Assembly (NCBI RefSeq): GCF_904846615.1 | Contig: NZ_CAJHBK010000001.1 | Span: 3,100,001 to 3,164,000, forward strand | DNA from: Psychrobacter sp. JCM 18902 | GTDB taxonomy: Bacteria; Pseudomonadota; Gammaproteobacteria; Pseudomonadales; Moraxellaceae | Reading direction: 5' to 3' | Length of the DNA stretch: 64,000 nt | In this document: piece after piece, positions 32,514-52,591 of the stretch | Numbering within the stretch: the first letter of the stretch is position 1 | Layout of the letters: each line of letters starts with the position of its first letter | Made by a program: the position numbers and the translations under genes | The notes under the pieces: model-generated | The model's database searches: none | What the model was told of the DNA's origin: nothing | What the model saw: the letters and a program-made list of their open reading frames with translations, nothing else

Positions 32514-32958
32514 GGTTTGGGATTTCCTAAATTTTAATCATTATTTTGTGCGTATTTTGAGGTTAGGGCGTGTCCTCAATTTACGATTTTTAAAACGAGG
32601 ACACGCCCTAATAAAACGTTATTTTTTTAAATCAACGCTATAAGCTGCAAATTTGTTGATTTTATATAAAGTATCTTTGTTATTTTGCGCGTTATTATAA
32701 CAGTCTGTGTGGATGCTATTTTACTAAAGGGATTTTTACAGTATCGTTAAGTCAATAAATGATTATTCACTGTATCGCTATTTTACTTATTCATTTTTTA
32801 AACCGTTTATCAGCATATCGCAACTTACCTATTGCTCAAAGTTTTTAGTTTGGCTAACCCGCATTTAAAGCGGTATAAATAATCATAATAGAGTGGCTAG
32901 CATAACAGAGTGCTAAGGATGCTTGCGATATCTAACATACAACCAAGGAGTTTTATCC
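32514..32958. other. rluE-icd divergent intergenic region
   Basis: 445 bp containing a 49-bp palindromic element near rluE (32563-32611) and then about 350 bp of AT-rich promoter DNA for icd. An AAGGAG ribosome-binding site precedes the icd ATG. Confidence 0.55.
32563..32611. repeat. 49-bp palindromic element, possible MITE or IS-end remnant
   Basis: Perfect 15-bp inverted repeats TTAGGGCGTGTCCTC and GAGGACACGCCCTAA flank a 19-bp AT-rich spacer. The GGGCGTGTCC ends resemble terminal repeats of some IS5-group elements, and the outer TTA/TAA could be target bases. The GC-rich arms contrast with the AT-rich surroundings. There is no T run in the right place for a good terminator. Whether it is repeated in the genome cannot be seen here. 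Confidence 0.65.
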
Positions 32959-34218
32959 ATGTCTTATGAGAAGGTTATCGTCCCAAGAGACGGCGAAAAA
33001 ATTACCGTAAATGCTGATCTGTCGCTAAATGTACCCAATCATCCTATTATCCCGTTCGTTGAAGGCGATGGTATCGGGATCGATATCACGCCGGTCATGA
33101 TAAAAGTGGTCAATGCGGCCGTGGAGAAAGCTTATCATGGCAAACAGTCCATCATTTGGATGGAAGCTTATCTTGGCGAAAAAGCCGCTAAAATATACGA
33201 TGGTGACTATCTGCCAAGCGAGACGCTAGAGATTTTAAAAGACTATGTTATCAGTATCAAAGGCCCATTGACCACGCCAGTTGGCGGTGGCTTTCGCTCA
33301 TTGAATGTGGCGGTACGTCAAGAGCTTGACCTCTATGTCTGTCAGCGCCCAGTTCGTTGGTTTGAAGGTGTACCAAGTCCTGTGCAGCATCCTGAGCTGA
33401 CAGATATGGTCATTTTCCGTGAAAATTCAGAAGATATCTATGCAGGTATCGAATGGAAAGCGGGCAGTGAGGATGCTAAGAAAATCATTAAATTTTTAAA
33501 AGAAGAGATGGGTGTTACGAAGATCCGCTTCGATGATGATTGCGGTATCGGCATCAAGCCAGTATCCAAAGAAGGCTCGCAGCGTCTGGTGCGTAAAGCT
33601 ATTCAACATGCTATCGATAATGATTTGCCCAGTGTGACTTTAGTGCACAAAGGCAATATTATGAAGTATACCGAAGGCGCATTTAAGGAATGGGGCTATG
33701 AGCTGGCAGCAGAACGCTTCGATGCAGAATTATTAGATGGTGGTCCTTGGATGACAATGAAAAATCCAAAAACAGGCAATGATATTATTATCAAGGATGT
33801 TATTGCTGATGCCTTTCTGCAGCAAATCTTGATGCGTCCTGCGGATTATTCAGTCGTTGCGACGCTAAACTTAAACGGTGATTATATCTCAGATGCCCTA
33901 GCAGCCGAGGTGGGCGGTATTGGTATCGCACCGGGCGCTAACAAAGGCGGCGCAATTGCGGTTTATGAGGCAACTCATGGCACAGCACCTAAATATGCGG
34001 GTCAGAATAAAGTAAATCCTGGTTCATTGATTTTATCAGCTGAGATGATGTTACGAGACATGGGTTGGACAGAAGCCGCTGATCTCATTATCAGTGGTAT
34101 CCAAGGTGCTATCGCTAATAAAACAGTCACTTATGACTTTGAGCGCCTCATGCCAGATGCTATCTTGCTCAGTACTTCTGAGTTTGGTAAAGCGGTTATC
34201 AAGCACATGGATGTTTAA
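32959..34218 (+). CDS. icd: NADP-dependent isocitrate dehydrogenase (dimeric, type I)
   Basis: Icd oxidatively decarboxylates isocitrate to 2-oxoglutarate in the TCA cycle. The 419-residue protein follows E. coli Icd closely: [20 protein letters not shown] with the phosphorylatable Ser, the active-site stretch [37 protein letters not shown], and [17 protein letters not shown], whose Lys-Tyr pair marks NADP preference. The start is set by [12 protein letters not shown] and the AAGGAG site; the open frame extends 12 codons upstream from a TTG that lacks one. The adjacent convergent gene encodes the unrelated monomeric isozyme. Confidence 0.97.
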
Positions 34219-34312
34219 AAAGTATATAGAGCTGAGTCAGCAGTTATCAGAATTTTATAGTATTGATAGAAGTATCAATATTCACAAAAGTATCGCTGAA
34301 CTTATCAATGTC

Positions 34313-34347
34313 AAAAAGCCATCTACAGTTATGTAGGTGGCTTTTTT
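34313..34347 (+). terminator. Terminator of icd
   Basis: Stem AAAAAGCCATCTAC / GTAGGTGGCTTTTTT with one G-T wobble and a T run. Confidence 0.85.
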
Positions 34348-34423
34348 ATTGGCAGTTTTTTGCTGTTTATCAGTGATATTTTAAAAGTAACGTTTTAAAC
34401 GTACTGTCTTATGTTCAAGCATA

Positions 34424-34462
34424 AAAAACACCGCTTAAGTCTGAGACCTAAGCAGTGTTTTT
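34424..34462 (-). terminator. Terminator of the monomeric isocitrate dehydrogenase gene
   Basis: Imperfect stem AAAAACACCGCTTA... / ...TAAGCAGTGTTTTT with one mismatch; the minus-strand T run fits termination of the gene ending at 34544. Confidence 0.75.
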
Positions 34463-34543
34463 ATTTTACCTAACTGGGTCCAAAAGTCTTTATAAGTAAA
34501 GAAAATTAAGCCCAATTGTTTGCTGTATTAGCACATAACTCAA

Positions 34544-36763
34544 TTACAATGAGGCGATTGCTGCATTGAATAGCGTGCTTGGACGCATCGCTTGTTCTGC
34601 CAATGCTTCGTCTGCCAAGTAGTAACCTTTTAAGTCTACAGGCTTGCCTTGAGCTTCATTTAGCTCTTTGACGATAGCAGCTTCGTTGCTCTCAAGTTTT
34701 TCTGCCAGCGGTGCAAATTTTGCTTTAAGATCAGCATCTTTATCTTGTGCCGCAAGCTCTTGTGCCCAGTACATCGCCAGATAGAAATGACTACCACGGT
34801 TATCGATTTCACCTGTTTTACGTGAAGGGCCTTTGTTGTTTAACAACAGTTTCTCTGTCGCCGTATCTAGCGTATCCGCCAAGATTTGCGCTTTAGCATT
34901 GTTATCGTGACTGGCCAAATGCTCCAAAGACACGGTCAAGGCTAAGAACTCACCCAATGAATCCCAACGTAAATGGTTTTCCTCTAACAACTGTTGAACG
35001 TGCTTAGGTGCAGAACCACCAGCGCCCGTTTCAAACAAACCGCCACCTTTCATTAATGGTACGACTGACAACATTTTCGCACTTGTGCCAAGCTCTAGGA
35101 TTGGGAACAAGTCAGTCAAGTAATCACGTAAAATATTACCAGTTGCAGAGATAGTATCCAGACCACGGGCAACGCGCTCTAGCGTATAACGCATCGCACG
35201 AACCTGTGACATGATTTCAATATGCAGGCCTGTCGTATCATGATCTTTTAAGTAAGTTTGAACTTTTTTGATCAGCTCGTTTTCGTGCGGACGGTAAGGG
35301 TCTAGCCAAAAGATAACTGGTGTATCTGATTCACGGGCACGGCGTACCGCAAGTTTTACCCAATCTTGGATAGGCTCATCTTTAACCTGACACATGCGCC
35401 AAATGTCACCGTTTTCAACCTGCTGCTCAAGCAATACCTCATCAGTATCTTCATCGACAATACGAGCCAATCCTGAACCACTCGCCTCAAAAGTCTTGTC
35501 ATGCGAGCCATACTCTTCGGCTTTTTGCGCCATCAAACCAACGTTAGGAACCGTACCCATCGTTGTTGGATCAAAGTTACCATGCCATTTACAGAAGTTA
35601 ATCATTTCTTGATAGATGCGAGCAAAGGTAGATTCAGGCATGACTGCTTTACAGTCATACATTTTGCCATCAGCGCCCCACATTTTACCGCCTGAACGAA
35701 TCATCGCTGGCATAGACGCATCAACAATCACGTCACTTGGTGAATGGAAGTTGGTGATACCTTTTGATGAATCAACCATCGCTAGGCGTGGACGATGCAC
35801 TTGGCAAGCATGTAAATCGCGTTCGATTTCTTCACGTTTACTGGCTGGTAGCTCAGCGATTTTTTCGTACAAACTTGCCATGCCGTTATTGACGTTGATA
35901 CCTAGCTCGTCAAAGAAAGCGCCATGCTTATTAAAGGCATCTTTATAATAAGTTTTGACCGCATGACCAAACACGATAGGATGCGATACTTTCATCATCG
36001 TGGCTTTTACGTGCAGTGAAAACAAGATACCAGCTTCGCGGCAATCTTCCATTTCACGCTCATAAAACTCAAGTAATGATTTTTTGCTCATAAACATCAA
36101 GTCGATGACTTCTTTGTCCAGCAAGGCAATGCCTGTTTTGAAGACATGAATAGTGCCATCTTCAGCGACACGTTCCATACGTACAGTACGTGCTTTATCT
36201 AAAGTGATAGATTGCTCACCAGCATAGAAATCGCCACTGTGCATGTGCGATACGTGGGTCTGTGACCATTGCTTCCATTCACCCATAGAGTGTGGATGCT
36301 TGCGTGCATAGTTTTTAACCGCTTTTGGTGCACGGCGATCTGAGTTGCCTTCACGCAAGACTGGGTTGACAGAACTGCCCAAGCTTTTGCCATAACGCTT
36401 ACGGATCTCTTCTTCTTCTTCTGTCTTAGGATCATCTGGAAAGTCAGGAATAGCGTAGCCTTTGCTTTGCAATTCTTTGATACAAGCTTTTAGCTGTCCA
36501 ACAGAAGCACTGATATTAGGCAGTTTAATGATATTGGTATCTGGATCTTGAGTCAGACGACCCAGCTCAGCCAGATTATCAGGAACGCGCTGCTCTTCCG
36601 TTAAGTACTCTGGAAACTCAGCCAACACACGGGCAGCAACAGAGATATCGCTGGTTTCAACTTCGATGCCTGCTGTTTGAGTAAAAGCTTTTACAATTGG
36701 CAAAAATGATAAGGTTGCTAGCGCTGGTGCTTCGTCAGTTTTTGTATAAATAATTTTAGACAT
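34544..36763 (-). CDS. Monomeric NADP-dependent isocitrate dehydrogenase (type II)
   Basis: A 739-residue monomeric IDH, unrelated in overall sequence to the dimeric enzyme and best known from Vibrio, Azotobacter and the cold-labile isozyme II of Colwellia maris. Family blocks include [19 protein letters not shown] near the N-terminus, [20 protein letters not shown] (substrate region), [20 protein letters not shown], and [20 protein letters not shown] near the C-terminus. Length matches the family (about 740). Symbols icd2 or idh are used for such genes. Having both types lets the cell tune isocitrate flux against temperature or carbon source; regulation here is not visible. Confidence 0.96.
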
Positions 36764-42914: not shown

Positions 42915-42958
42915 AACCTGAATTCGGGATAAATATGGTTTTATCTCGAATTCAGGTT
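42915..42958. repeat. Long inverted repeat between gltS and the barstar gene
   Basis: AACCTGAATTCG(G)GATAAA...TTTATC(T)CGAATTCAGGTT: 19-bp arms with one G-T wobble around a short loop. It may end the barstar-RNase transcript, though its minus-strand T tract is broken by A residues. Confidence 0.7.
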
Positions 42959-42975: not shown

Positions 42976-43344
42976 CTAGGCATCATCCACGGACGGCATA
43001 ATAACCCATAATTGCGGCTTGCCAAAATCTCTGTAGGCATCTTCAATGATGCTTTTGAAAACATTAAAATCTTCAGTGTTTATTTTTTTCACCGCTGTTA
43101 GATCCAGCATCAGGTGAGTCACTTCGCTGTCCGTTAAACAGTCCCATGCGCTATCCCAGTTATGTGAAAAATAGCTGGGAAAATCACAGGCATTGGCTAA
43201 GTTTGTTAATAATGTGGTTTTATTAAGTATCTCGTCTACCGGTATGTTAACAGTCTGAGTGGGCATGCTAGCATTTAGTGCTGTAGTTTTTTGGTTAATA
43301 TCTTGGTCAAAACCCAGATTAATATAGTGGATGGCTTTACTCAT
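42976..43344 (-). CDS. Barstar family ribonuclease inhibitor
   Basis: A 122-residue barstar-like protein, predicted to block a barnase/RNase Sa-type ribonuclease by occupying its active site. The hallmark is FPSYFSHNWDSAWDCLTD: Asp64 and Asp68 correspond to the barstar residues (Asp35, Asp39) that bind barnase, with Trp67 and Cys69 also conserved. A flexible N-terminus of about 30 residues precedes the fold. No signal peptide, so it is cytoplasmic. Its ATG follows the stop of the RNase-domain gene after a single base, so the two are surely cotranscribed and translationally coupled. The cognate target is inferred to be that neighbour. Confidence 0.9.
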   Translation of the reverse strand: MSKAIHYINLGFDQDINQKTTALNASMPTQTVNIPVDEILNKTTLLTNLANACDFPSYFSHNWDSAWDCLTDSEVTHLMLDLTAVKKINTEDFNVFKSIIEDAYRDFGKPQLWVIMPSVDDA

Positions 43345-43345
43345 A

Positions 43346-44116
43346 TTATTTTACGTCCAGTCTGCGAAAGCTATCATAGTGATCAACGGTTAAGTAATAC
43401 ACGGTCGGCGGATGACCACCTGTGACGATACGCCGTGCACCGCGATGTGACACGCCAGAGGTCGGCACGGTATATTCACGGTAGTAGCCTTGCGACTGCG
43501 TGGGCAATCTGCCCTCACGATTATAAAATGTCGTGCCATCTTTATGAGGATAAGGAAAAGGCCCGCCTCGTTGAATAAGGGCAATGGTATTGTCTATCTG
43601 AGCATCGCCCGTGACGCCGCTTGTCTTTGCTGGCTGTGCCTCTGATGAGGTTTGTGATACCGTCGTTGGGTCAATACTATCGGTCAAAAACCCAGACGAC
43701 AAATCACCAAAAAAGTAAACAGCGACGGCAATAAGAGCAATCACACTAAATAGGGTAGAGCCTAAGCTTCTCTTGTTTTGGTTGCCACGATGATGATGAC
43801 GATTGTCACGGGTAGTGTGTCGCGGGTTTTTGTTATTATCAGTAGGGTTGTTTCGGCTGCCAGTATTTGAATAGTGATTGGTTATATTTGAGTCTGGAGT
43901 GGCTAAAATACTCAATTCGTTGGAAGTGACTTCAGTGGCTCGTAGTTGGTTTTTATCATTACGCTCGCTATTAAAATAGACGCTTTGACCAACGGTTATC
44001 GGCTGTGATAATCGCACTTTACTCACATGGAAAAACACGTCTTCACTTTGGTTGTCTACATCGATAAAGCCATAGCCTTTATCTGAATTCCAGTGCTTGA
44101 TTTTACCACTCTGCAT
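43346..44116 (-). CDS. Cold-shock domain / membrane anchor / guanyl-specific RNase fusion protein
   Basis: A 256-residue fusion. Residues 1-65 are a cold-shock domain (RNP1 KGYGFIDV 13-20, RNP2 VFFHVS 27-32). Residues 75-117 are a hydrophilic Asn/His/Arg-rich linker, and 119-137 a single membrane helix. Residues 171-256 are an RNase Sa/barnase-type (N1/T1/U2) domain: DNTIALIQRGGPFPYP, NREGRLPTQSQGYYREYTVP, HRGARRIVTGG and DHYDSFRRL. The catalytic set appears intact: Glu214, Arg229 and His246, matching Glu54, Arg69 and His85 of RNase Sa. Positive charge before the helix predicts cytoplasmic CSD and periplasmic RNase. The downstream barstar gene supplies a likely cytoplasmic inhibitor. Could be a toxin, a nutritional RNase or an RNA-surveillance enzyme. 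Confidence 0.88.
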   Translation of the reverse strand: MQSGKIKHWNSDKGYGFIDVDNQSEDVFFHVSKVRLSQPITVGQSVYFNSERNDKNQLRATEVTSNELSILATPDSNITNHYSNTGSRNNPTDNNKNPRHTTRDNRHHHRGNQNKRSLGSTLFSVIALIAVAVYFFGDLSSGFLTDSIDPTTVSQTSSEAQPAKTSGVTGDAQIDNTIALIQRGGPFPYPHKDGTTFYNREGRLPTQSQGYYREYTVPTSGVSHRGARRIVTGGHPPTVYYLTVDHYDSFRRLDVK

Positions 44117-44213
44117 AAGCCCACTTTCCTATCGCTTGTTTCATTATCGTGCCGCATGACTTCTACCATACATATGGTTTTAATACCGCATATATAACAT
44201 ATTTGACACTACT

Positions 44214-44246
44214 AAAAAACGCCAGCAATTGAGCTGGCGTTTTTTT
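44214..44246 (-). terminator. Terminator of proA
   Basis: Perfect stem AAAAAACGCCAGC-AATTGA-GCTGGCGTTTTTT. It lies after proA (minus strand) and before the RNase-fusion gene, isolating that module. Confidence 0.88.
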
Positions 44247-44297
44247 GTGGATTATACGTTAAATGAGAGAGTGGATGATAGGCTAAGCGATAAGACG

Positions 44298-46777: not shown

Positions 46778-47575
46778 ATGCTTGATATTGCAAAAGATCC
46801 GACTCGGCCTATCGCCTTAGATTTACAAGACGTCCATAAAAGCTATGGCTCATTGGCAGTGCTAAAAGGGGTGTCCCTTACCGCATATGACGGTGATGTC
46901 ATCTCTATTTTGGGCTCATCAGGCTCAGGTAAATCTACCTTGCTGCGCTGCATTAATTTGCTCGAAAAGCCCAATCAAGGTCGTATTATTATCGGTAATG
47001 ATGAGCTGATGCTCAAGCCTGCCAAGTCAGGTGAGCTGCAAGCGGTCGATATCAAGCAATTGGAAAACTTGCGTGCGCGCGTGGGTTTTGTCTTCCAAAA
47101 CTTTAACTTGTGGCCGCACAAAACGATTTTGCAAAACATCATCGAAGGGCCAACGCAGGTTTTAAAGATTAAAAAAGATCAAGCCATTAGCGATGCTGAA
47201 AAGCTGCTCGATAAAGTCGGTTTACTTGATAAGAAAGACGCCTATCCAGCGAATTTATCTGGCGGTCAGCGTCAGCGTGTCGCGATTGCCCGTGCCCTTG
47301 CTATGCAACCACAGGTGCTACTATTCGATGAGCCAACCTCAGCCTTAGATCCTGAGCTGGTCAATGAAGTGCTCGCTGTCATGCGTGAGTTGGCAGAAGA
47401 GGGACGTACTATGCTTATCGTCACCCATGAGATGCGTTTTGCGAGAGAAGTATCAAGCAAAGTGGTGTTCTTGCATCAAGGCGTGATTGAAGAGATTGGC
47501 ACGCCCGAGCAAGTTTTTGATAATCCTACCTCTGAGCGTGTCAAAGACTTTATGGCATCGCATCGTCAGAACTAG
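46778..47575 (+). CDS. Polar amino-acid ABC transporter ATP-binding protein (HisP/ArtP type)
   Basis: The cytoplasmic ATPase of a type I amino-acid importer. In 265 residues it has Walker [10 protein letters not shown] (46-54), Q-loop [11 protein letters not shown], signature LSGGQRQ (160-166), Walker [15 protein letters not shown] (about 180-193) and switch [15 protein letters not shown]. The insertion between residues 75 and 95 ([21 protein letters not shown]) is typical of the HisP/ArgT/ArtP branch, pointing to basic amino acids. It is followed by three binding-protein genes and, further on, two permease genes. A hairpin at 47610-47633 may reduce read-through. Confidence 0.92.
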
Positions 47576-47886
47576 CCTCGTATTTAGTATCCGTTTTATA
47601 TGCAAAAATGGGGTGGTAATATTCTTACCACCCTATCGTCATTTTATTTTAAGCGTAAAATTACTGCTTAGTAAGCAGCGTTGACCGTTTATTACTCGTT
47701 AATAACAGTCGGTATGTAAAACGTTTGTTTTTGATATTTTACTCAGGTATTATCAAAAGGTTTACAGGTGGTCGATAATGACGGCTGCTTGTGTATTCTG
47801 CTATCTATATTGCTTGTCTGGCAGGGACGTCAGAGAACAAAATATCAGAACCCTACATTAAAAACCCATCAGAATTTAAGGAATGT
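47576..47886. other. Region between the ATPase and first binding-protein gene
   Basis: 311 bp. A stem GGGGTGGTAA-TATTC-TTACCACCCT (47610-47633) with a weak T tract lies near the ATPase stop. The rest is AT-rich and may hold a promoter for the binding proteins. The open frame of the next gene extends back to 47791 but lacks coding character. Confidence 0.45.
47610..47633 (+). terminator. Hairpin after the ABC ATPase gene
   Basis: Stem of about 9 bp with only an interrupted T tract (ATCGTCATTTTATTTT). It may act as a partial terminator or 3'-end stabiliser within the cluster. Confidence 0.5.
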
Positions 47887-48687
47887 ATGATGTCGAATTC
47901 TCGCCTATTGTGGTCATCGATGACCGTTACCGCCGCATTGATGCTGAGCGCCTGTAGTCAACCGGCTAATGAAACTACTGATAGCAACACTGACGCCGCT
48001 GCAGCAGAAACGGCTGGCAAGACCATTCGTATCGCGACTGAAGGTGCTTACCCTCCTTTTAACTACACCAATGCTGATGGCAGCTTGGCAGGCTACGATA
48101 TTGATGTTGCCAATGCCTTGTGTAAACAGATGCAAGCCAAATGTGAAATCGTCGCTCAAGATTGGGATGGTATTATTCCGGGTCTTTTAGCACAAAAATA
48201 TGATGCAGTGATTGCGGGTATGTCTATTACACCTGAGCGTCAAGAAAAAGTCGACTTTACCGAGCCTTACTTTGCCAATACGATGGTTTGGCTGACCGAT
48301 ACCAAAGGCAGTTTTGATCCTATGGCGATCAAAAACTTGACACTTGGTGGTCAACGTTCAACCACGCCTGGCGCTTATTTACAAGATAACTATGAAGGCA
48401 AAGACGGCAATACTGTGCAGTTGTATGACAATTATGACAATGCTTATTTGGATCTAAAGTCTGGTCGTAGCGATGCAGTATTGGCGGAAAAAGTCTCTGC
48501 CAAATCATGGTTGGCAGACAACCCTGAAGGCTTTGGTATCGTTGGTGACGAAATTGACAATGACGACAATATTGCCATTGCTGTTCGTAAAGGTGACGCA
48601 CTCAGAGACGACTTTAATAAAGCACTCAGCGAAATCCGTAGTAACGGTGAGCTGGCACGTCTTGAGCAAGCGAACTTTGGTCAATAA
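47887..48687 (+). CDS. Amino-acid ABC transporter substrate-binding lipoprotein 1
   Basis: A 266-residue family-3 periplasmic binding protein anchored as a lipoprotein (lipobox MLSAC, Cys23). The ligand site is IRIATEGAYPPFNYTNADG, then GYDIDVANALC, QDWDGIIPGLLAQKYDAVIAGMSITPERQ, and VDFTEPYF. This arrangement (EGAYPPFN, D...F/YDID, T.ER) is that of arginine/lysine/histidine binders (ArtJ/HisJ type). The ATG-ATG start follows AAGGA; the longer frame lacks a site. It is the first of three tandem paralogues and closest to the third. Confidence 0.92.
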   Translation: MMSNSRLLWSSMTVTAALMLSACSQPANETTDSNTDAAAAETAGKTIRIATEGAYPPFNYTNADGSLAGYDIDVANALCKQMQAKCEIVAQDWDGIIPGLLAQKYDAVIAGMSITPERQEKVDFTEPYFANTMVWLTDTKGSFDPMAIKNLTLGGQRSTTPGAYLQDNYEGKDGNTVQLYDNYDNAYLDLKSGRSDAVLAEKVSAKSWLADNPEGFGIVGDEIDNDDNIAIAVRKGDALRDDFNKALSEIRSNGELARLEQANFGQ

Positions 48688-48719
48688 TCTTCTGATTGAA
48701 AAATGAAGGAATAGCAAAC

Positions 48720-49646
48720 ATGACAATATCAATGACATCATCATTAAAAACTAAGGCGCTTTGGCTTGCGCCATTAAGTGCCGCGATGCTTATGCTGGCT
48801 GGTTGTAATAATAGCGCCACGCCAGAAGATGGTGCGGCAGCTGACACCACAGCCGATGCACCTATGAACATAAAAATTGCCACCGAATCAAGCTATAAGC
48901 CGTTCAGTTATACCGATGCTGATGGCAAGTTAATTGGTTATGAGATTGAGCTGGTCGATGCTCTGTGTGCACAAATGAAGGCAAAATGTGAAGTCATCTC
49001 ACAAGATTGGGATGGTCTCATTCCTGGTCTAAATGCCCAAAAATTCGATGCAATTATCGCAGGTATGTCGATCACGCCTGAGCGTAAAGAAGTGGTTGAA
49101 TTCACTGACCCGTACTTTCACACTGGCATTATCTTAATTGGTAAAAAAGGTGATGACATTCGCGTCGATGCATTAAAAGGTCAGCCCATTGCCTCACAGC
49201 GTTCAACCGTCGCTTCACAGTACTTGCAGGATGAACATGCAGATGCTGATATCAAGCTTTATGATACCCAAGACAATGCGTATCTGGATCTGACTTCAGG
49301 TCGCGTACGGGCAATGATGTCCGATAAAGTCACTGGCATCGATTGGCTAAAAACGGATGCTGGCAAAGACTATGAAGTAAAAGGACAAGAAATCAGCACC
49401 GACGAAGATGCCATGGGTATCGCGCTTCGTAAAGGCGATCCATTGGTCGCTAAGTTCAATAAAGCGTTGGCTGAATTAAAAGAAAACGGTACTTATGACC
49501 AAATCACAGGCAGCTATTTTGGCACCAGCTCTACTGCTGCTGCGCAAAAAGCCGTGGCAACCACCGACGTAAAAGAAGTGATGGTGGTTGAAGGTGATGA
49601 TGCTGTTGAAGTGAAAGAAGAATCAGCTGAAGCGGCGACTAACTAA
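48720..49646 (+). CDS. Amino-acid ABC transporter substrate-binding lipoprotein 2
   Basis: A 308-residue paralogue of its neighbours with lipobox MLAGC (Cys29). It differs in the ligand pocket: ATESSYKPFSYTDADG in place of EGAY-PFNYT, and GYEIELVDALC in place of G-D-D-ANA-C, so its specificity probably differs. The domain ends near residue 270; an Ala/Val/Glu-rich acidic extension of about 35 residues follows, absent in the other two. It starts 32 bp after the first paralogue with AAGGA ten bases before the ATG. Confidence 0.9.
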   Translation: MTISMTSSLKTKALWLAPLSAAMLMLAGCNNSATPEDGAAADTTADAPMNIKIATESSYKPFSYTDADGKLIGYEIELVDALCAQMKAKCEVISQDWDGLIPGLNAQKFDAIIAGMSITPERKEVVEFTDPYFHTGIILIGKKGDDIRVDALKGQPIASQRSTVASQYLQDEHADADIKLYDTQDNAYLDLTSGRVRAMMSDKVTGIDWLKTDAGKDYEVKGQEISTDEDAMGIALRKGDPLVAKFNKALAELKENGTYDQITGSYFGTSSTAAAQKAVATTDVKEVMVVEGDDAVEVKEESAEAATN

Positions 49647-49748
49647 TATCATAGCTCATCTCTGTGCTCGGCTGATATGGCTGTCACGTATGGCGATATT
49701 CACTCATAGAGATGAGTGTTATTTTACTCACAAACCCCAAGGATGATC

Positions 49749-50660
49749 ATGAACAACCATTTTGACCAACACTGTGCAATCGCGAACGCGTCTGTTATCA
49801 ATGGCATCAAGGCGCGACGTTTTTCAGCGCCCTTGCTTGCGATGGCGGCGCTTTTAACCTTAGCAGGATGTAGCAATGGTCAAAATGATGCAAATGATGA
49901 TGTCAGCCCAGACGCCGCTGAGACCGCAGCGACGGGTGATGTGTTACGTATTGGTACCGAAGGCGCTTATGCTCCCTTTAATTATACCAATGCGGATGGC
50001 ACCCTTGGTGGTTTTGATGTTGATATTGCCAACGCTATCTGTGCCGATATGAAGGTAACATGTGAAATCACGGCGCAAGATTGGGACGGTATCATCCCCG
50101 GTCTAAAAGCGGGTAAGTACGATGCGATTGTGGCCGCCATGTCGGTGACGCCTGAGCGTGAGCAACAAGTCAGCTTTACAGAGCCGTACTTTAGCAATAC
50201 CTTGGTGTTTTTGGCCAAAAAAGACAGCAGCTTCGATCCTAGCAATAGCGATGATATCAATGCGCACTCTATTGCCGCTCAGCGCTCGACCATTTCTTCG
50301 CAGTGGTTAGAAAAGGTTTATCCAAATGCTGACATGAAGCTTTATGACACGCTAAGTAATGCGTTTTTGGATTTGGGTTCGAATCGTGTTGATGCGATGG
50401 TGTCTGATAAGCTGCCAGCGCTAGAATGGCTTGGCTCCACCTCAGGCAGTCAGTATGCGCTCAAAGGTCAAGAGATTGACATCAATGATAATTTTGCCAT
50501 CGCGGTGCGTCCAGGCGATGCATTGCAAGCAAAAATCAATAAGTCATTGGTCAATATTAAAGCGGATGGCACTTACGATAAAATCAATCAAAAATATTTT
50601 GCGATTCCAGCATCAAGCTCAACGGTCACTACTGAGCCGACAGAAAAACCTGCTGAATAA
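49749..50660 (+). CDS. Amino-acid ABC transporter substrate-binding lipoprotein 3
   Basis: A 303-residue third paralogue, with a long N-terminus before the lipobox TLAGC (Cys41). The pocket motifs IGTEGAYAPFNYTNADG, GFDVDIANAIC, AQDWDGIIPGLKAGKYDAI and VSFTEPYF match the first paralogue more than the second. The start is the ATG at 49749, six bases after AAGG; the frame is open to 49716. A strong hairpin with T run follows, separating it from the permease genes. Confidence 0.9.
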   Translation: MNNHFDQHCAIANASVINGIKARRFSAPLLAMAALLTLAGCSNGQNDANDDVSPDAAETAATGDVLRIGTEGAYAPFNYTNADGTLGGFDVDIANAICADMKVTCEITAQDWDGIIPGLKAGKYDAIVAAMSVTPEREQQVSFTEPYFSNTLVFLAKKDSSFDPSNSDDINAHSIAAQRSTISSQWLEKVYPNADMKLYDTLSNAFLDLGSNRVDAMVSDKLPALEWLGSTSGSQYALKGQEIDINDNFAIAVRPGDALQAKINKSLVNIKADGTYDKINQKYFAIPASSSTVTTEPTEKPAE

Positions 50661-51118
50661 GTCTTAAAATATGTTTAGTACTGTTGCATCGTAACCGTGA
50701 GAATGGTGATTTTTAATAGGTTAATTTGAATTCCATTTCATAGGAAGGGTATTGCTTCAATAGCGATATCCTTTTTTTGTTTTTTATAAAAAATAGTTCG
50801 GTCTTGTGATATTGACTGTTCGGTTTGTAAAAATATGACTAATCTAATGCATTTTTAAGAAGATAAGCGTCTATTTAAGCACTGCTTTTACGTGTGAGTA
50901 TTAACATAGCTGGCAGCGAATATGATAAAATCAGCGCTCATTTCTACTGTGTCAATTTCCGCCGCAATAATCGTATTGATTTGACGTCCATCTATGACGC
51001 AAAGCACCAAGGTCTATTTGGTATAAAATACGCTTATGAGCAGCGCTCAGCGATTGATGCTGATTCTTTTAACTCATATTTTGCAAATTGCTAATATAAA
51101 GAGACTGAGTGGATAATT
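50661..51118. other. Region between binding-protein and permease genes
   Basis: 458 bp. It begins with the terminator at 50745-50772 and continues as AT-rich DNA that probably holds a promoter for the permeases. A 66-codon open frame at 50894-51094 has no ribosome-binding site or family resemblance. Confidence 0.45.
50745..50772 (+). terminator. Terminator after the third binding-protein gene
   Basis: 12-bp stem AAGGGTATTGCT-TCAA(T)-AGCGATATCCTT, complete with G-T wobbles, then TTTTT. Confidence 0.82.
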
Positions 51119-51853
51119 GTGTTTGATTTACAAGGATTTGGCGCGCTACTACTGAGCGGCGCTACCGTCACCATCAAGCTTGCCATGACCAGTTTAGTCA
51201 TCGGCATGGCTTTAGGGCTGCTCGGTGCCACAGCTAAGCTGTCCAATGTCTGGCTGCTGCGTAAAATTGCGACTGTATATACGGCGACAATGCGCGGTAT
51301 TCCAGAGTTGCTATTGGTATTGTTTATCTATTACGGTGGCTCTATGCTGCTGATGACGATTCTCAAAAAATTCGGCTATAATGAATATGTTGAGATCAGT
51401 GCCTTTTGGGGCGGCGTGATGGCGTTATCTATCGCGTTTGGCGCTTATGCGACTGAAATTTTTCGCATGTCGATCCAAGAGATTCCGATAGGGCAAAAGG
51501 AGGCGGCGCAAGCGATTGGTATGCGTCCTTTTCAGACGTTTTATCGCATTACCTTGCCACAAGTTTGGCAGATTGCGTTGCCAGGATTGGGCAATTTGTT
51601 TTTGGTGTTGCTCAAAGATACTGCATTGGTATCGGTCGTGGGTCTCAAAGATATTATGTATCAGGCATCACGTGCCGCCCAATCAACGCAGCAGCCATTT
51701 ACTTTTTATATGGCAGCGGCGATTATTTATCTGGGTTTAACCATGTTGATTACTGGTTTTATGATGTGGCTCGAATGGCGCGCCAATCCAGCGGCACGCT
51801 ACGCTAAAAAGCTGAGCCGTCAGTCAACCCACCGTCAATCGACCATAGGATAG
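51119..51853 (+). CDS. Amino-acid ABC transporter permease 1 (HisQ/ArtQ type)
   Basis: A 244-residue inner-membrane permease with about five helices. It carries the N-terminal LLSGATVTIKLAMTSLVIGM and the EAA loop EIFRMSIQEIPIGQKEAAQAIGM, which docks on the ATPase. RGIPELLLVLFIYYGG is typical of HisQ/ArtQ. The predicted start is a GTG; no in-frame ATG occurs nearby before the conserved region. It pairs with the next gene 12 bp downstream. Confidence 0.9.
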   Translation: MFDLQGFGALLLSGATVTIKLAMTSLVIGMALGLLGATAKLSNVWLLRKIATVYTATMRGIPELLLVLFIYYGGSMLLMTILKKFGYNEYVEISAFWGGVMALSIAFGAYATEIFRMSIQEIPIGQKEAAQAIGMRPFQTFYRITLPQVWQIALPGLGNLFLVLLKDTALVSVVGLKDIMYQASRAAQSTQQPFTFYMAAAIIYLGLTMLITGFMMWLEWRANPAARYAKKLSRQSTHRQSTIG

Positions 51854-51865
51854 AGGAGAGATACT

Positions 51866-52591
51866 ATGGATTGGAATTGGCAGGTTATTTTTGATAGCAT
51901 TCCTGATTTATTAAACGGGGCAGTATTGACCGTACAGCTGGTGGTTATCTCAGGTATTATCGGTCTATTTTTTGGTTTGGTTTTAGCCCAGTTGCGCTTG
52001 TCAAAAAACTGGCTGGTGCAGATACTACCATTTTCTTATATCTTCTTCTTCCGTGGCACGCCGCTGCTGGTACAGATATTTTTGATTTATTATGGTCTAG
52101 GACAGTTTGAGGCTATACGGAATTCGTTCTTATGGGAACCTGTGCTCAGTCAAGCGTATTGGTGTGCCATCATTGCCTTTACCATGAATACCAGTGCTTA
52201 TTTGGCAGAGATCATTCGCGGTGCGATTCAGACCATTCCTGTTGGTGAGCTCGAAGCAGCTGACGCTATCGGTATGTCGAAATGGCAGAAGCTTACGCGT
52301 ATTACCTTACCCCGTGCCTTTGGTATTGTCATTCCAGCCTACAGCAATGAAGTGATCTTTATGCTAAAAGGCAGTGCGCTTGCGTCAACCATCGCTTTGA
52401 TGGATATCACGGGTGTCGCTCGAACCATTAGTGCGCGAACTTATACCTTGATGGAGCTGTTCTTTGCTGCTGGTATTATTTACCTTCTATTATCATGGGT
52501 GATTCTGTTTAGCTTTAGGTTGTTTGAAAAAAGAATGAACCGCCACACAAGCTATGTACCGCCTGATGTAATGACCAACACCATACCTTAA
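51866..52591 (+). CDS. Amino-acid ABC transporter permease 2 (HisM/ArtM type)
   Basis: A 241-residue partner permease. Features: LLNGAVLTVQLVVISGIIGL at the N-terminus, FFRGTPLLVQIFLIYYGL, and the EAA loop EIIRGAIQTIPVGELEAADAIGM. A GGAG site lies before the ATG. Together with permease 1 it forms the heterodimeric channel for the cluster's ATPase. A perfect palindromic terminator ends the unit. Confidence 0.92.
   Translation: MDWNWQVIFDSIPDLLNGAVLTVQLVVISGIIGLFFGLVLAQLRLSKNWLVQILPFSYIFFFRGTPLLVQIFLIYYGLGQFEAIRNSFLWEPVLSQAYWCAIIAFTMNTSAYLAEIIRGAIQTIPVGELEAADAIGMSKWQKLTRITLPRAFGIVIPAYSNEVIFMLKGSALASTIALMDITGVARTISARTYTLMELFFAAGIIYLLLSWVILFSFRLFEKRMNRHTSYVPPDVMTNTIP

Follow-up and report, generated by a model that had tools for sequence, protein, structure and literature searches.

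A 64,000-nucleotide stretch of DNA from Psychrobacter sp. JCM 18902 (the window) contains one open reading frame that joins a cold-shock domain (CSD), a hydrophobic helix and an RNase Sa-like domain, followed by a gene for a barstar-like inhibitor. If the helix spans the inner membrane, what would a nucleic-acid-binding domain do on one side of it and an RNase on the other, and why should an inhibitor be encoded next to both? The reading that we regard as rather likely is that of a periplasmic RNase tethered to the inner membrane, with the barstar as a cytoplasmic safety inhibitor and the CSD at the inner face. The RNase/barstar pair as such is known, and its combination with a membrane-spanning CSD seems to be little described. 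The interest of the locus therefore lies in the role of the CSD and in the group of membrane-linked CSDs to which it points, not in the enzyme/inhibitor pair.

Architecture of the gene pair

Table 1. Positions in the window of the fusion gene, its parts, the inhibitor gene and the two hairpins.
Feature	Position	Strand	Remarks
CSD-linker-TM-RNase Sa fusion gene	43346..44116	-	256 aa, ATG start
Cold-shock domain, residues 1-66	43919..44116	-	PF00313, conserved columns, pLDDT; presumed RNP1 KGYGFI and RNP2 DVFFH retained
Asn/His/Arg-rich variable linker, residues 67-116	43769..43918	-	dN/dS 0.457, disordered in AlphaFold model
Single hydrophobic helix, residues 118-136	43709..43765	-	mean KD 2.25; 25-residue flanks with 7 K/R before and none after
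RNase Sa-like domain, residues 167-256	43349..43618	-	Glu214, Arg229, His246 present
Barstar-like inhibitor gene	42976..43344	-	122 aa, ATG start; Asp64, Asp68 present
19-bp inverted repeat 3' of the barstar gene	42915..42958	-	RNA hairpin -22.4 kcal/mol, z -9.24
Hairpin and T-run between proA and the fusion	44211..44248	-	z -6.42

Pfam places residues 3-64 of the fusion in the CSD family (PF00313, 48.9 bits against a cut-off of 27), residues 169-253 in the Ribonuclease family (PF00545, 75 bits against 24), and the 122-residue protein in the Barstar family (PF01337, 49 bits against 23.4); no NCBIfam family matched the latter. An earlier note, made from the letters of this DNA, had named the same CSD, linker, single helix, RNase Sa-type domain and barstar, and with Pfam scores above the cut-offs and correct coordinates these assignments stand. 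Among solved structures the RNase part is nearest to RNase Sa3 (1mgr, E 1.3e-22) and RNase Sa, and the barstar-like protein has weak matches only (best E 0.035). The entry 1ay7, which contains RNase Sa and barstar chains, was matched by both genes (E 9.5e-19 and 0.036). By homology, the RNase domain is predicted to cleave RNA in a guanyl-specific manner, the CSD to bind single-stranded nucleic acids, and the barstar to bind and inhibit the neighbouring RNase, 1ay7 having chains of both families.

The residues described as intact in the window are intact throughout. Glu214, Arg229 and His246, which we take to be the catalytic residues from their role in RNase Sa, are invariant in all 40 aligned fusions with identities down to 38%, and the two inhibitor residues Asp64 and Asp68 are kept in every one of 30 barstars, seven of which come from outside Psychrobacter. 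The motif positions that we take to be RNP1 and RNP2 are mostly invariant or nearly so in the 40 fusions. An AlphaFold model of the fusion, which the earlier note had proposed as a check, was built on the same number of sequences. In blocks of ten residues the CSD has pLDDT values of 90-96 (78 at its end) and the RNase domain fairly confident values of 77-92; the linker is disordered and the helix is of low confidence (residues 126-135, pLDDT about 50). With an overall pTM of 0.41 the relative placement of the domains is undefined.

The stop codon of the fusion and the start codon of the barstar gene are separated by a single base, and both genes are on the minus strand. The hairpin on the upstream side is likely the terminator of proA and the one behind the barstar gene likely the end of the transcription unit; flanked in this way, the pair probably forms a transcription unit of its own in which both genes would be co-transcribed. 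Neither hairpin was called in the terminator consensus scan, which returned two terminator-like sites (1.2 expected); eight promoter-like sites were found (3.8 expected) and no clear promoter resulted from the scan. In Rfam no match within the window reached the gathering score, which gives no indication of a regulatory RNA. The inverted repeat behind the barstar gene is near-perfect, contains GAATTC in each arm and folds far better than shuffled sequence.

Conservation, locus and relatives

The fusion was found in 82 of 105 Psychrobacter genomes (E up to 1e-15) and is whole and in a single frame in 76 of these, which rules out an assembly artefact at the junction of CSD and RNase, the case that the earlier note had named as fatal to its reading. 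The six other genomes are of different kinds. One represents Psychrobacter celer, whose CSD is deleted in frame (G020). In two genomes that are at least 99% complete the CSD is parted from the RNase by a stop codon in the linker (G304) or by a frameshift in the CSD (G346). In G344 the RNase frame starts at a contig end, and two genomes of 85-86% completeness (G327, G339) have several breaks. The counterpart of G327 by position, locus L070 of sp. WY6, has the barstar gene and gltS broken as well, so that poor sequence is likely for G327. A barstar match is present in all 82 fusion genomes, the one in G327 being broken like other genes there, and in 84 genomes of the genus overall, the two additional matches being weak (G319, G351).

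Whether a barstar gene always follows had been posed as a question, and it does so in all 59 named Psychrobacter loci. The distance between the RNase stop and the barstar start is one base in 42 of the 59; in the others the genes adjoin directly (1), have apparent gaps of 16 to 76 (13), overlap by 32 (2) or are broken (L070). The larger apparent gaps may be due to a true barstar start further upstream. Of these 59 loci, 57 have proA on the upstream side and 52 have gltS on the downstream side. The named locus nearest to the fusion of the window is that of Psychrobacter glacincola, with 98% identity over the fusion, in a scan that may omit records very close to the genome of the window. Elsewhere in the window, genes named by eye include an amino-acid ABC transporter cluster with three tandem substrate-binding proteins (46778-52591) and two adjoining isocitrate dehydrogenases of 431 and 739 aa on opposite strands (32923-36763).

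Twenty-two of the 23 Psychrobacter genomes without the fusion were examined at proA, with a view of 1.5 kb beyond this gene, and 21 are informative because one locus ends just past proA (L176). Barstar-matching remnants are left in three of them (L155, best E 8e-12; L159, 1e-6; L161, 1.4e-6), and L155 also retains a 20-residue piece of the RNase end (E 0.008); no further RNase match at E below 0.05 was found within this distance in the 21 genomes. Together with the absence of any fusion genome without barstar, these three cases, few and weak, hint at what would be expected if the inhibitor is needed alongside the enzyme. At four loci (L162, L163, L164, L172) a different frame for a hydrophobic protein is found downstream of proA and the pair is absent, and thus the site next to proA hosts different genes.

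The 15 named relatives from outside the genus (Saccharopolyspora, Rubrivivax, Propionivibrio, Accumulibacter, and a Rhodocyclaceae) all carry the RNase behind a hydrophobic export-type segment, as does L032, a genome of the same family, and a Pfam barstar was found in all 16 downstream frames scanned at these loci and at L032. The enzyme/inhibitor pair itself is therefore ordinary. A CSD pattern (KG[FY]GF) occurs in frame in none of the 15. Because these relatives consist of an RNase with export signal and a barstar but have no CSD, a known pair seems to have gained an N-terminal CSD. A search of the class recovered PF00545 in 15 of 369 genomes, the genome of the window included, and a CSD together with it in one other locus, L146, which belongs to another family. 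There, a CSD-helix-RNase protein is followed by a Pfam barstar (44.8 bits), so that the architecture for which the earlier note had suggested a search exists in a second family, with the inhibitor gene behind it. With L146 as query, at least several more proteins that combine CSD and RNase are among the matches listed, one of them named Cardiobacteriaceae bacterium TAE3-ERU3; the family name Cardiobacteriaceae is taken from this one record (P0122). As the homologue lists comprise the best 120 of 2526, 7933 and 7956 matches, the distribution outside Psychrobacter is at least as wide as described here.

Two further kinds of RNase proteins were seen in these searches. Seven proteins (P0126, P0131, P0137, P0144, P0152, P0170, P0181; one named as actinobacterial) have two RNase Sa domains in tandem, the second of which, inspected by eye, has no general-base Glu and thus looks like a dead partner domain. 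PF00545 also matches very long frames of the kind known from polymorphic toxins, in G081 (2144 aa; same family) and G325 (1469 aa; same genus). The latter is one of the 22 fusion-less genomes examined at proA and has this match elsewhere in the genome.

Membrane topology and the cold-shock domain

Topology was assessed for 67 fusions (66 distinct, P0155 being a duplicate of L116), comprising the window, 55 named Psychrobacter loci and 11 database proteins. Their best 19-residue window has a mean hydropathy of 1.64 to 2.65 (mean 2.24), and in all 67 the flank before the helix carries a more positive net charge than the flank behind it. On average 5.8 Lys and Arg residues precede the helix and 0.6 follow it, with P0121 (3/3) and P0133 (4/3) as nearly equal exceptions. 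The positively charged flank of a membrane helix stays inside (the positive-inside rule). The arrangement that had been proposed from the window, CSD inside and RNase outside, is therefore borne out as a prediction in every fusion of the set, with the RNase on the periplasmic side.

Whether the RNase would stay attached depends on cleavage behind the helix. A strict AxA past the helix is found in none of the 67 fusions but in five of the 15 outside relatives. By a looser rule, an AxA-like triplet in the 15 residues that follow the hydrophobic core, nine of the 67 fusions qualify compared to 14 of the 15 relatives. This contrast favours a membrane anchor in the fusions and a cleaved signal in the outside relatives. 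However, a strict AxA is present within the helix of 51 of the 67 fusions, so that cleavage and release of the RNase may occur. The earlier proposal that nucleic-acid binding by the CSD is coupled to RNase release finds no support here, given the missing strict AxA past the helix and given that the CSD can be absent while RNase and barstar are kept. In Psychrobacter celer (L019/L119) the first five residues are retained and lead straight to the helix, followed by the RNase and the barstar, and this CSD-less form with helix and RNase is also that of two clusters of proteins, with 100 and 7 members, among the matches listed. The CSD is thus separable from the RNase and the barstar.

The genome of the window has five CSD matches, namely three short frames of 72-93 aa, the fusion, and a CSD-DUF1294 protein. 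Models of stand-alone cold-shock proteins (Csp) score the fusion CSD below their cut-offs (cspD 43.8 bits against 115.4; others likewise). A tree of 29 CSDs has a branch with support 98/100 that separates seven stand-alone Csp proteins from the CSDs of the fusion, DUF1294 and Excalibur proteins. The tree is built on 70 columns and 16 of its 26 inner branches are weak, leaving the order within the fusion/DUF1294/Excalibur side mostly unsettled. The long DUF1294 and Excalibur branches may be joined falsely according to a warning of the tool, and the fusion CSDs form one group in 44% of the bootstrap trees, which does not support a single clade. The Excalibur protein (L187, in G391), one of 25 Excalibur loci examined, combines a CSD, a Lys-rich linker, one helix and an Excalibur domain in a single frame, and its Excalibur part is probably exported. 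Judged by its kinship, the fusion CSD looks like a membrane-linked kind with varied partner domains rather than a Csp fused by chance. Since other membrane proteins carry CSDs of its group, the fusion CSD need not be specific for the RNase. This eases the puzzle of two nucleic-acid domains on opposite sides of a membrane, which the earlier note had found hard to explain, but does not solve it.

Selection was compared across domains on 56 Psychrobacter sequences (the topology set without the database proteins; L070, L117, L118 and L119 are left out), of which five have no usable proA. From the remaining 51, 223 of 1275 pairs were picked by a proA dS of 0.1 to 1.0. The dN/dS values are 0.073 for the CSD and 0.066 for the RNase, with 0.040 for proA as control. 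In the rest of the fusion the helix region has a value of 0.126 and the two linkers have 0.457 and 0.441; for the barstar, the core gives 0.108 and the N-terminal extension 0.391. The CSD and the RNase are under equally strong purifying selection and the linkers drift. This bears on the possibility that the protein is a plain periplasmic scavenger RNase whose CSD is a passive spacer or a relic, as the species without CSD and the stop codon and the frameshift between CSD and RNase in two nearly complete genomes might suggest. A passive domain would not be expected to evolve as slowly as the enzyme, to keep several RNP positions unchanged across 40 proteins with identities as low as 38%, or to occur in such fusions in two families, and we consider this explanation unlikely. 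The conservation would mean that the CSD matters in most species, yet Psychrobacter celer does without it and offers a natural CSD-less comparison.

Function of the pair and comparison with known systems

In the reading that we favour, a Sec-type helix would direct the export of the RNase Sa domain to the periplasm and then remain as inner-membrane anchor. On the periplasmic side the enzyme would cut RNA, either for salvage or for the clearance of RNA reaching the envelope. The barstar would remain cytoplasmic and block enzyme that folds ahead of export, a guarding function that had been suggested for the window and agrees with the known logic of the barnase/barstar family. At the cytoplasmic face the CSD would bind single-stranded RNA or DNA, and would most likely help messages, its own mRNA among them, to be translated or targeted at the membrane, rather than steer the catalytic domain. 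Export, anchoring and the cytoplasmic barstar lock follow the barnase/barstar scheme as given in PMC8625414, where the N-terminal signal peptide of barnase is removed and the enzyme leaves the cell.

The earlier note had also offered a contact or competition toxin, in which the RNase would be delivered into neighbours and the barstar would protect siblings. The gene order of toxin followed by immunity would fit, and PMC3482391 lists barstar, for polymorphic toxins, as the partner that confers immunity to Tox-Barnase. However, the same paper separates the simple barnase-barstar pairs, which are widely distributed 'without notable polymorphism'. The RNase domains of the 51 Psychrobacter sequences share a mean pairwise identity of 0.871 (minimum 0.778) at the low dN/dS given above, the 256 residues contain no delivery domain, the locus next to proA is a conserved chromosomal one, and no secretion or delivery genes were recognised by eye among the ORFs of at least 150 aa at 28000-58000. 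This idea did not hold up and appears quite improbable.

A cytoplasmic toxin-antitoxin or abortive infection system, in which all or an unexported part of the protein would remain in the cytoplasm, the CSD would guide the RNase to RNA and the barstar would serve as antitoxin, has similarly poor prospects. Both domains belong to nucleic-acid families, the inhibitor gene is close behind the toxin gene, and in PADLOC a CSD model hits the CSD by itself (E 1.4e-9). However, PADLOC gives no barstar match, the charges around the helix are those of an N-in/C-out protein in all 67 fusions, a hydrophobic segment precedes the RNase in every one of the 15 named outside relatives, and the toxin gene comes first at a conserved chromosomal locus. 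In type II toxin-antitoxin systems both partners are cytoplasmic and the antitoxin gene is usually first. With its toxin-first order and predicted export helix the pair does not fit that class.

There is a slim chance that the protein is a transmembrane nucleic-acid device, in which the RNase trims RNA outside and the CSD receives or senses single-stranded nucleic acid inside, so that both sides are linked in uptake or in the sensing of envelope RNA. If this were true, membrane CSDs with exchangeable RNase, Excalibur or DUF1294 parts would be a general and little-studied class. Under the favoured reading of a tethered RNase with a cytoplasmic inhibitor, the data suggest that in Psychrobacter and at least one other family a secreted RNase/barstar pair became membrane-tethered with a nucleic-acid-binding domain on the opposite side, and they point to a group of membrane-linked CSDs with differing partner domains. 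In the open-licence PMC literature we found no paper on membrane-linked CSDs with DUF1294 or Excalibur partners, none joining barstar, cold shock domain and ribonuclease, and none on a Psychrobacter barstar; the first 300,000 of the 357,715 characters of PMC3482391 contain neither 'cold shock' nor 'CSD'.

Compared with known systems, the fusion pair resembles in its enzyme and inhibitor the secreted barnase or RNase Sa with cytoplasmic barstar, with which it shares an RNase N1/T1/Sa domain behind an export signal, the same catalytic and inhibitor residues, and, in the relatives examined, an inhibitor gene beside the RNase. It differs in that barnase loses its N-terminal signal peptide and leaves the cell, whereas in the fusion of the window 117 residues including the CSD precede the helix and no strict AxA is found past its end. 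With the polymorphic toxin systems (Tox-Barnase/Imm-Barstar) it has the toxin and immunity folds and the gene order in common, but those systems are characterised by a large delivery part, repeats and C-terminal polymorphism, and the short fusion has neither a long delivery part nor repeats and is conserved at its C-terminus. The CSD-DUF1294 membrane proteins (L139, a frame of 229 residues in the genome of the window) resemble it in an N-terminal CSD from the same side of the tree and in a membrane part, and have the DUF1294 part where the fusion has anchor and RNase. A similar overall plan is that of the CSD-TM-Excalibur protein, in which CSD, linker, one helix and a predicted exported C-terminal domain follow each other in the same way; this domain is an Excalibur domain there and an RNase in the fusion.
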